Notes under the pieces: generated by a model
Seen by the model: the letters and a program-made list of their open reading frames with translations, nothing else
Database searches by the model: none
What the model was told of the DNA's origin: nothing
Position numbers and translations under genes: made by a program
Shown here: one piece after another, positions 23,044-26,345 of the stretch
Numbering within the stretch: the stretch's first letter is position 1
Layout of the letters: the number at the start of each line of letters is the position of its first letter
DNA from: an uncultured Woeseiaceae bacterium
Lineage (GTDB): Bacteria > Pseudomonadota > Gammaproteobacteria > Steroidobacterales > Woeseiaceae
Direction of reading: 5' to 3'
Length of the DNA stretch: 36,324 bases
Assembly (NCBI GenBank): GCA_947259145.1
Contig: CAMYLB010000301.1
Location: forward strand, 1 to 36,324

Positions 23044-23105
23044 AGCGCCGCTTTGCGGTATGCTTGTGTTGGCTGAACAATAACAAACTGCCTTGGGGGA
23101 GATCT

Positions 23106-24329
23106 ATGCCGGCCAACCTGATCGGACTCGTCGGAATTGTCGTGATTCTGGCTATCGCAGTCGCCTTCTCAAGTAACCGAAAAGCAATCAACCTGCGTAT
23201 TGTTGGTGCGGCGTTTGGCCTGCAGGTCGCGATCGCCACGTTTGTTCTTTATTTCGACACAGGGCGGGCCGTCATCGATACCCTGAGCACCGGCGTTCTC
23301 AAGGTTATTGGCTATTCGAAGGCCGGCATCGACATGGTATTTGGGCCACTCGCCGATACCAACGTTATTGGTTTCAGTTTTGCGATCAACGTGCTGCCGA
23401 TCATTATCTTCTTCGCTGCCCTGATGTCGGTCATGTACCACCTTCGAATCATGGAGTGGGTCGTGAAGCTCGTCGGCGGATTTCTGCACAAGGTTATTGG
23501 TACCGGCGCCGTCGAATCGATGAACGCCGCGGCGAATGTCTTCATTGGCCAGACGGAGGCACCGCTGGTCGTAAGGCCTTATCTTAAAAACCTCACGGAG
23601 CCGCAGATGTTCGCGGTGATGGTCTCGGGCCTGGCCTCGATTGCCGGCACGGTCCTGGCAGGTTACGTACTCATGGGTGCGGAACTCAAATACCTGCTGG
23701 CCGCAGCCTTCATGGCTGCGCCAGGCGGTCTGCTGATGGCGAAAATCATCATGCCCGACGAACAAGTGGTCAAGGCCGGCGAACATGAGAAGCTCGTCAT
23801 GGAGCCCAGCCAGCATCGCAACGTCATCCTGGCGGCCGCGTCCGGCACGACCGACGGTCTGCGCCTCGCCGCCAATATCGGCGCGATGCTCATCGCGTTC
23901 GTTGCCCTCATCGCCCTGTTCAACGGCATTGTCGGTGGCATTTCCGGGTTGTTTGGTTACGAGCTGACCCTGGAGAAGATCCTCGGCTGGATCTTCAGGC
24001 CGCTGATGTTCCTGCTGAGCGTTCCCTGGTCCGAGGCGCAGGCGGCGGGCGCACTGTTTGGCGAGAAGCTTATTCTCAATGAGTTCGTTGCATTCAGTCA
24101 TCTCACCGAGCGCCTCGCCGGCATGAGCGATCGGACGCACGCGGTCGTGACGTTTTCACTGTGCGGTTTCGCGAATTTGTCATCCATCGCGATCCTGCTC
24201 GGCGGCCTCGGTGTACTCGTCCCGGAAAAACGGGACCTGATCGGTGTGCTTGGTATCAAGGCTGTCCTGGCGGCGTCGCTGTCGAACCTCATGAGTGCGG
24301 CATTGGCAGGGCTGCTGCTGACGTTCTGA
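23106..24329 (+). CDS. Concentrative nucleoside transporter, NupC/CNT family
   Basis: Inner-membrane cation/nucleoside symporter, 407 residues, with eight or more hydrophobic segments. CNT hallmarks are present: GQTEAPLVVRPYL (substrate/cation-binding hairpin), ASGTTDGLRLAANIGAMLIAFVALIAL, VPWSEA, LNEFVAF and LCGFANLSSIAILLGGLG. The longer open frame starts at 23064, but the ATG at 23106 is preferred: a GGGGGAG ribosome site ends about four bases before it, and the protein then begins with a normal hydrophobic N-terminus. The stop codon (24327-24329) directly abuts the 272-bp inverted-repeat element, which separates it from the nucleoside hydrolase. It supplies nucleosides to DeoA, the hydrolase and the deaminases. 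No truncation is seen. Specificity (pyrimidine versus broad) is not deducible. Confidence 0.94.
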   Translation: MPANLIGLVGIVVILAIAVAFSSNRKAINLRIVGAAFGLQVAIATFVLYFDTGRAVIDTLSTGVLKVIGYSKAGIDMVFGPLADTNVIGFSFAINVLPIIIFFAALMSVMYHLRIMEWVVKLVGGFLHKVIGTGAVESMNAAANVFIGQTEAPLVVRPYLKNLTEPQMFAVMVSGLASIAGTVLAGYVLMGAELKYLLAAAFMAAPGGLLMAKIIMPDEQVVKAGEHEKLVMEPSQHRNVILAAASGTTDGLRLAANIGAMLIAFVALIALFNGIVGGISGLFGYELTLEKILGWIFRPLMFLLSVPWSEAQAAGALFGEKLILNEFVAFSHLTERLAGMSDRTHAVVTFSLCGFANLSSIAILLGGLGVLVPEKRDLIGVLGIKAVLAASLSNLMSAALAGLLLTF

Positions 24330-24601
24330 CCAGGGCCTGTTAACGCTTGCCAGATCGCTCCGACGGGCACCCATTTTGTTCAATACAAGGAACGATGAAC
24401 GCGATGTACTCCATGTACATTAGTGAAGAGAGACGCCGTAGTGGGCAAAATGGGACCCGTCCCTTCGGGTTGTTGTCGCAAATGGCCCCATGCTGCGTTG
24501 CTCGTCACTCATTTGGATTCACCAAACCACGCTTCTCGCGCCTTGCTTGGGGCCATTTGCGCCAGCAACGGAGCGATCTGGCAAGCGTTAGCAGGCCCTA
24601 G
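24330..24601. repeat. 272-bp element with 33-bp terminal inverted repeats and nested hairpins
   Basis: The outer arms (24330-24362 and 24569-24601) are inverted repeats matching at 31 of 33 positions, with core AGGGCCTG...TAACGCTTGCC. Inside are at least three further hairpins. Arms CCCATTTTG/CAAAATGGG are at 24370-24378 and 24446-24454. ACCCG/CGGGT lie just after these. Arms CGCAAATGGCCCCA are at 24477-24490 and 24548-24561. The whole could fold into a multibranch structure in DNA or RNA. No gene of its own is present; short open frames through it are uncharacteristic. It begins right after the transporter stop and ends at the first base of the hydrolase GTG start, filling the gap exactly. 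MITE-like element or structured operon leader are the two main readings; no clear target duplication is seen. Confidence 0.85.
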
Positions 24602-25496
24602 TGCCTCCACGCCCAATCATTATCGACTGCGATCCGGGTCAGGACGACGCCGTGGCGTTGTTTCTTGCCATGTCATCACCCGATGAACTCGAGGTTCTTG
24701 GCGTCACGACAGTAGCCGGCAACGTACCGCTTGCGCTCACGCAACGTAACGCACGCATGATGTGCGATATTGCCGGGCGCGCGGATATCCCTGTTTTCGC
24801 AGGCTGTGAGAAGCCCATGGTTCGGGAGGCGATCACTGCCGAATACATTCACGGCAATACGGGTATCGACGGAGTGGCTGTTTTTGAGCCCGATACGCCG
24901 CTACAGGAACAGCATGCCGTCGAGTTCATCGTGCAAACACTTCTCGATGCAGACAAACACTCGGTTACGCTCGTACCAACAGGGCCATTGTCGAACCTTG
25001 GCACAGCTTTCCGGAAGGAACCAAGAATACTGCAGCACGTGAAAGAGATCGTGGTCATGGGCGGCGCCATGCGTGAAGGCGGTAATCGCTCGCCTTCGGC
25101 TGAGTTCAATATTCTCGCGGATCCACAGGCGGCGGACATCGTGTTTTCGTGTGGCAGACCTATTACGGCCATGGGGCTCGATGTGACTCACCAGGTGCGG
25201 AAGCGACCGCGGGAATGCTCAGTTTTTTTCATCGCTACGACACCAAGAAATACGGAACAGAAGGCTCACCATTGCATGATCCATGTACGATCGCCTGGCT
25301 GCTGAAACCGGAACTTTTTCAGATAAGAATGTGCAATCTTTCAGTCGAAACTGAATCCGAATTGACGATGGGGCATACGGCGATCGATTTCTGGCATGTC
25401 ACAGACCGGCCCAACAACGTGCACTGGACGCACGCCGTCGATGCAGACGGTTTCTTCGAACTGTTGACAGACCGGCTCGCCCGGTTTGAGCGGTAA
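24601..25496 (+). pseudogene. Inosine-uridine (RihA-type) nucleoside hydrolase with frameshifting deletion
   Basis: Hydrolyses the N-glycosidic bond of ribonucleosides, giving base plus ribose. From the GTG at 24601 the frame has IIIDCDPGQDDAVAL (calcium-binding Asp cluster), TTVAGNVPL, STGPLSNL-like VPTGPLSNLGTA, VMGGAM, AEFNILADPQAA and AMGLDVTHQV, then goes out of frame (false end at 25305). The C-terminal part continues in another frame: ATAGMLSFFHRYDTKKYG, GSPLHDPCTIAWLLKPELF (conserved His-Asp), ending at 25496. Compared with RihA-type enzymes, about 17 residues are missing between the two parts, and the frame change suggests loss of about 52 nt at 25192-25200. The start codon overlaps the end of the inverted-repeat element. 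Ribokinase follows 6 nt later, matching the ribose product. As written the enzyme would be non-functional. Confidence 0.87.
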
Positions 25497-25502
25497 CAGA
25501 TA

Positions 25503-26345
25503 ATGTCATCTATCGTTGTAGTTGGTTCCGTAAACGATGATATTGTCGCCAGCGTTTCGCGTTTGCCTGCGCCGGGTGAAACGGTGACTGGTGCAGAGCT
25601 GGGTCGGTTCCCGGGCGGGAAGGGCGCCAACCAGGCGCTTGCAGCACAGCGGCTTGGTGCAGACGTCAGCTTGATTGCTTGCGTTGGCGATGACGCTGCG
25701 GCAGACGAGGCTCTCGCGCTTTTACGGCGAGGCGGCGTCGACCTCTCGAAATGCCGGCGTATCGAAGGTGCGACCACAGGCACCGCTTTGATCGCAGTCG
25801 CGCCTTCCGGCGAAAACCATATCATTGTTGCGCCCGGCGCAAATCGAATGCTCACGCCCGATGACGTTGAGGCCATCCACGCTGATGCGCTGATCTGCCA
25901 GCTCGAGGTGCCGGTACCGGTTGTCGTCGAGGCGGCCAGGGCATTCCGAGGCTTTTTTTGCGTCAACCTTGCGCCCGCCGCGGAGATCGACGTCGAGGTT
26001 CTGCAGCGCGCCGACCTGGTTGTTGTCAACGAAACGGAGTCGAACTGGTACGGCGGCTCGCTTAAGGCCTGTACCGGGCTCGTCGCGACCACGCACGGTG
26101 CCGGCATTGCAACGCTTGCGCGAGACGGACAGCTTATTGCGGAGGCAAAGCCGCCAAGCGTACAGGCGGTAGATACAACGGGCGCGGGCGACACCTTTAC
26201 CGCAGCGCTCGCGGTTTCGCTCGTGGAAGGGCAGGAGCCGGAACAGGCATTGCGCTATGCCTGTGCGGCTGGCGCCGTTGCGACTATGAAAATGGGCGCA
26301 CAGCCGTCGCTGCCGGATCGCGATTCCGTATTGAAGTGGTTGTAA
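25503..26345 (+). CDS. rbsK: Ribokinase, PfkB family
   Basis: Phosphorylates ribose to ribose-5-phosphate with ATP in the cytoplasm. 280 residues, slightly short for ribokinase (about 300) but with all landmarks: N-terminal VVVGSVNDDIV, FPGGKGANQALAAQRLGA (PfkB signature 1), GTALIAV, VVNETE, and DTTGAGDTFTAALAVSL (signature 2, with the catalytic Asp in GAGD). The region between VNETE and DTTGAGD is compact (about 50 residues), and I see no frame break. It starts 6 nt after the nucleoside hydrolase stop. It would use the ribose released by that enzyme. It is the last gene of the plus-strand operon and converges on a hypothetical gene 18 bp away; the short palindrome AGTCCGGACT lies at the junction. 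Other PfkB sugar or nucleoside kinases are possible. Confidence 0.88.
   Translation: MSSIVVVGSVNDDIVASVSRLPAPGETVTGAELGRFPGGKGANQALAAQRLGADVSLIACVGDDAAADEALALLRRGGVDLSKCRRIEGATTGTALIAVAPSGENHIIVAPGANRMLTPDDVEAIHADALICQLEVPVPVVVEAARAFRGFFCVNLAPAAEIDVEVLQRADLVVVNETESNWYGGSLKACTGLVATTHGAGIATLARDGQLIAEAKPPSVQAVDTTGAGDTFTAALAVSLVEGQEPEQALRYACAAGAVATMKMGAQPSLPDRDSVLKWL

Follow-up and report, generated by a model that had tools for sequence, protein, structure and literature searches.

MITEs, non-autonomous transposable elements, are usually viewed as decayed leftovers of IS. The described kinds nearest to the element reported here are NEMIS, ERIC, RUP, CIR and QMITE, none of which is credited in the reviews with a pair of inverted hairpins like those it contains (PMC2229807, PMC10969869). 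The NEMIS or Correia sequences of Neisseria are likewise short and non-autonomous, with TA at their ends and long terminal repeats, and their folded transcripts are reportedly cut by RNase III (PMC2229807, PMC10969869); however, they measure ~107 or 155 bp, are confined to one genus and are described in these reviews without paired inverted 97-nt units. ERIC and RUP are also small TA-flanked mobile sequences, RUP having its ends in common with an IS (IS630-Spn1), and ERIC RNA influences mRNA stability (PMC2229807). Both differ from the present element in length (~107–127 bp) and sequence, and the ERIC effect depends on orientation, whereas our element displays one motif in each orientation. 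CIR of Caulobacter and Brucella shares an architecture of two arms and a linker with a conserved predicted RNA structure (PMC2229807), but is an alphaproteobacterial sequence of ~110 bp with a GANTC motif and unclear terminal repeats. QMITE of Coxiella burnetii, compared here by its description, is a MITE whose repeats measure 23–29 bp and whose transcript is highly folded (PMC10969869), and differs in having 7–9-bp direct repeats. Membership of the REPIN/RAYT group is unlikely because of the element's size, long terminal repeats and IS5 partner.

The element lies in a window of 36,324 nucleotides from an uncultured Woeseiaceae bacterium, the whole stretch of DNA that was analysed. The first-pass annotation had placed a 272-bp inverted-repeat element with a multibranch fold at 24330–24601, between two genes of an operon. 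Inverted repeats are present there, of 34 nt (24329–24362/24569–24602, 94% complementary), 25 nt (24469–24493/24545–24569, 88%) and 17 nt (24370–24386/24438–24454, 82%), and the fold is far above chance: its energy is −153.2 kcal/mol versus −88.8 ± 5.3 in shuffles (z = −12.1), with none of 200 shuffles folding as well as the 272-nt stretch. The inverted-repeat element thus stands, with its exact ends corrected to 24333–24598 by the comparison of copies; this gives 266 bp with ~30-bp terminal repeats and no recognised coding content. We read it, with a probability of about 0.75, as a MITE moved in trans by IS5 transposases of the IS427 group, with a conserved twin-hairpin core that probably acts as RNA. 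The features of the locus are listed below, where R1 denotes a covariance model of the 97-nt hairpin, used at a threshold of E ≤ 1e-4.

23064–24329, plus strand: upstream gene, NupC-type nucleoside transporter (TIGR00804, 5.6e-133; PF07662).
24331–24332: left flanking dinucleotide CA, in the window copy probably an altered TA of the target duplication (TA at left in 56 of 73 clear-ended copies).
24333–24598: mobile element proper (266 bp; GGGCC at start, GGCCC at end), delimited by comparison with more than 100 other copies and empty sites.
24333–24362, plus strand: left terminal inverted repeat, with the outer bases GGGCCTGTTAAC of IS427-type IS5 ends.
24364–24460, plus strand: hairpin A, 97 nt, motif on the plus strand (R1 66.2 bits, E 1.5e-14, the window copy being included in the model).
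24461–24469: central 9-bp palindrome CCCTTCGGG, a small hairpin; a hairpin spacing of ~9 nt is the rule in other genomes.
24471–24567, minus strand: hairpin B, 97 nt, motif on the minus strand (R1 87.6 bits, E 6.2e-20, the window copy again being included in the model).
24569–24598, minus strand: right terminal inverted repeat, from the repeat search and comparison with IS ends.
24599–24600: right flanking TA (TA at right in 64 of 73 clear-ended copies).
24601–25305, plus strand: downstream nucleoside hydrolase, frame broken after about residue 200 (PF01156, 3.5e-73, profile positions 1–201 of 297).
25503–26345, plus strand: PfkB-family kinase (PF00294, 2.1e-50).

When the window's genome and 60 relatives were searched, copies or partial copies of the 272 bp were found in 12 of the relatives, all of the same genus and mostly at unrelated loci; the element is therefore not a single-copy sequence. 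Most of the 116 elements extracted measure 264–283 bp. The earlier proposal of a non-autonomous mobile element is borne out by the dispersal of its copies, by sites found empty, by TA flanks and by terminal repeats that equal those of IS, and on these comparisons the element is a MITE and not a fixed host regulator. Gene trees group the window's genome (G000) with G009 and G083, both of which lack the element, and place the element-bearing G024 apart, while the G000 and G024 copies are 96% identical against 78% for the flanking coding DNA; the element thus appears to have arrived separately or by transfer. The left junction is odd in both of these copies (CA and CG, not TA), which would be compatible with transfer or with an old insertion followed by losses. 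Three orthologous copies at a different locus (L002, L011 and L039) differ by internal deletions, which indicates that individual copies decay.

In the host operon, the gap between transporter and hydrolase was read in 30 genus members; 28 of these lack the element, and their gap is only a few bases wide. Since these element-free relatives place an ATG, GTG or TTG a few bases after the transporter stop, the GTG at 24601–24603 looks like the host gene's own start codon, and there is no support for the suggestion of a start codon context supplied by the element. The hydrolase, an open frame of ~315–320 codons in relatives, is interrupted in the window, where within 24601–25496 coding resumes in a different frame at 25149–25496; this reflects either a real frameshift or an assembly error.

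A host regulatory RNA for the nucleoside-salvage operon, acting as an attenuator or processing site, would suit the position of the element between co-directional genes, and NEMIS and ERIC elements can affect neighbouring mRNA (PMC2229807, PMC10969869). Yet the same element family occupies unrelated loci, the hydrolase of the window itself has a disrupted frame, and a terminator-like site was looked for and not found. This last result, together with the element-free gap in relatives, led us to reject an attenuator; with the decay of copies elsewhere by deletion, it also leaves regulation of the window operon unsupported, and we regard a host regulator of either kind as very improbable. The structured RNA proposed in the first-pass annotation accordingly holds for the family, where covariation is strong and wobble pairs are strand-specific (below), and lacks support as a regulator of the nucleoside operon.

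The ends of the element connect it to IS5-type IS. At locus L045, an IS5 transposase fragment (PF13340, 6.9e-21; 96.7 bits against NF033580, below the cut-off of 110) lies beside CTAGGGCCTGTTAACACTAAT, and the plasmid relatives of this locus are TA-flanked IS of 805–824 bp in which both sides have nearly the same ends. Genome G216 carries five IS of 807–808 bp ending in GGGCGTGTTAACACTAAT, which over the outer 12 bases differs at a single position from the elements of that genome, and the elements of G021 end in GAACCTATCTCA, as does one side of an 834-bp IS5 in that genome, the other side being GAACCTATTTCA. Complete partner IS (805–834 bp) are slightly shorter than the 832–865 bp of published IS427-group members, all but one of which, as tabulated, have 2-bp direct repeats (PMC3281130). 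The element and the IS427 group share the same terminal 12–16 bp and TA flanks within YTAR; the IS have a transposase and no hairpins, whereas the element has hairpins and no gene. TA occurs on both sides in 52 of the 73 elements with clear ends, and 48 of these 52 copies show YTAR with outer bases that combine freely, as expected for a 2-bp duplication. The ends common to the element and these IS probably reflect use of the same enzyme. No transposase of IS5/IS427 type was detected in the window's genome, the assembly of which is 76% complete. IS630 was also considered as a partner, prompted by an Azotobacter neighbour and a CTAG/TA target, and was dropped because IS5 relatives carry the same ends.

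End types differ between hosts, with at least eight kinds found: GGGCCTGTTAACAC, GAACCTATCTCA, GAGCCTGTCTGTGAATAAATC, GGGGGCGTTCTCAATTAA, AAGGAAACACTGATC, GAGCCTGTTTCAGTAG, GGGCGTGTCGTCATGAG and GGAATCTCTGATTAATT. The genome of the window also contains, at L004 (G000:C181, from 1341 on the minus strand), a 269-bp copy whose core is of the same type but whose ends (GAGCGCATCTTATGCATCCTC) are quite unlike and are not flanked by TA. Lone ends or truncated elements abut host genes directly at L034, L037, L049, L050 and L055, where they often supply a TAG stop codon or adjoin a start codon. Palindromes of ~24 bp, CTAGGGCCTGTTAACAGGCCCTAG or near it, occur at L041, L042 and L054, with more in G015, G088 and G030; they resemble the two ends of an element joined without its interior, and might be scars left where a palindrome was deleted between the two GTTAAC.

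Between these ends, hairpins A and B are homologous 97-nt units on opposite strands, inverted around the 9-bp palindrome. In a tree of hairpins, the A and B copies separate into two clades (one label change), so that the inverted duplication predates spread among the sampled hosts. Read on the motif strand, the consensus runs from the outer stem through CAAGGC, a 5-bp helix and GAGCG to an apical stem-loop, and returns through GAGCGA, a 5-bp helix and AACGCCG to the outer stem. The tandem G.A/A.G pairs and one more G.A hardly vary (conserved in 42, 47 and 48 of 50 hairpins). Standard pairs make up 85.9%, and the compensatory changes that had been sought in the stems are present, both sides having changed in 33 of 39 pairs, with a covariation score of 0.615 versus 0.191 for shuffled and 0.10–0.15 for slid structures. 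Identity is 87% in loops and 58% in outer stems, a comparison in which hairpin-B loop conservation is inflated, hairpin B itself being the seed pattern for many copies. Together, these data support selection on the core structure. In the Thiodiazotropha copies L069, L077, L079, L087 and L163, an extra small hairpin, GCGCCCCGAAGGAAGTGCCCTTGGGGTGCGCC or similar, is inserted at up to two places per element.

Covariation of this kind could also arise in an ordinary MITE as a mutational by-product. Template switching at inverted repeats is an established process that corrects imperfect palindromes, and with no selection on the fold it might account for the covarying arms of an element that is itself a long palindrome; the small central hairpin occurs both ways round (CCCTTCGGG and CCCGAAGGG), and the internal deletions in L002 and L011 also fit. 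However, the tandem G.A and the AAC bulge have been long conserved and left uncorrected. Mismatch counts bear further on this point, as G-T and A-C are expected to be equally frequent where no single strand is selected. Read on the plus strand, the outer stem of hairpin A contains 119 G-T and 33 A-C, and that of hairpin B 22 G-T and 59 A-C, so that the G-T excess flips with the motif strand and lies on B's own strand. The sampled lineages are related. Counting lineages instead of sequences leaves the direction of the wobble bias unchanged, with significance that drops as clusters become coarser; at the coarsest clustering the bias for hairpin B loses significance. The motif strand also folds more stably, in 61 of 67 cases for A and 60 of 67 for B. 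The strand-specific wobble excess and the folding energies argue against palindrome correction as the sole cause, an explanation we hold to be improbable, and for selection on a single-stranded fold, with support for each hairpin being selected on its own strand.

As to whether that strand is RNA or DNA, the G-T excess speaks for RNA, as does a conserved G-U pair, but G-T outdoes A-C in single-stranded DNA as well, and sheared G.A pairs are found in DNA too. The fold might act during transposition as a cruciform or as single-stranded hairpins that serve as a recognition site for the transposase or for a DNA-binding protein of the host. Such a role would agree with the strong conservation of a core within transposon ends and with the inverted symmetry usual for DNA sites. 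Against it, IS5-type DDE transposases use double-stranded ends and their IS are without hairpins, covarying stems are unnecessary for double-strand recognition, and a G-U pair is retained in 38 of 50 hairpins. We consider a DNA role unlikely, and because of the retained G-U pair, RNA is the likelier active form.

The hairpin is widespread. R1 matched 71 of the 274 genomes sampled within the class (61 of 221 genera) and 84 of 299 genomes in a phylum-wide draw; the loci checked usually hold an inverted pair ~9 nt apart. A short hairpin-B pattern occurs in at least 119 stretches in named genomes, and the matches listed include Thiodiazotropha, Woeseiaceae, Pseudomonas, Gilvimarinus, Marinobacterium, Thiohalobacter, Nevskia, Nitrococcus and Zetaproteobacteria, among others. 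Genome G303 alone has 44 matches to this pattern, almost all of them identical, as might be left by a recent burst. Most R1 matches outside the class come from one family (f205, perhaps Zetaproteobacteria), many with at least 10 scored copies. With the longest ORF as a crude proxy, neighbouring genes showed no clear orientation bias. Rfam 15 gave no match in the window at gathering score, and for six further loci the best weak matches fell far below cut-off, so by gathering or E-value thresholds a known RNA family was rejected; a phage origin was likewise set aside, the phage collection searched yielding no match. Text searches, the scope of which excluded subscription journals and ISfinder, returned no description of the element, only general MITE/IS papers and chance sequence matches.

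In the mechanism we propose, IS427-group IS5 transposases would mobilise the element in trans and insert it at TA within YTAR, and the core between the IS-like ends would be active as RNA, such that a transcript in either orientation shows exactly one motif copy. Our leading, though less certain and speculative, suggestion is that, through the motif, an untranslated insertion within a transcribed region becomes tolerable or of use to the element; a possible route, also speculative, is the binding of a host RNA-binding protein, RNase or RNA polymerase, leading to anti-polarity or clean processing. The motif would not serve the operon where the element happens to sit. A bolder version can be put forward only tentatively: a mobile lineage defined by its RNA core and not its ends, in which a 97-nt RNA domain, anciently duplicated in inverted orientation, is displayed once per transcribed strand, different IS5-type ends were captured repeatedly, the lineage spread through much of Gammaproteobacteria and beyond, and the RNA cancels polarity or recruits a host factor.

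The sequences are best read as a new superfamily of MITEs whose folded core, probably RNA, is independent of orientation. About a quarter of the sampled genomes of the class carry a motif absent from Rfam, which constitutes an annotation gap. A gene-free core whose precise structure persists in many hosts, with transposase-facing ends that differ, suggests that the core itself is under selection. Should the motif work as RNA, the family would offer a tractable case of a parasite that handles host transcripts whatever the direction of its insertion.
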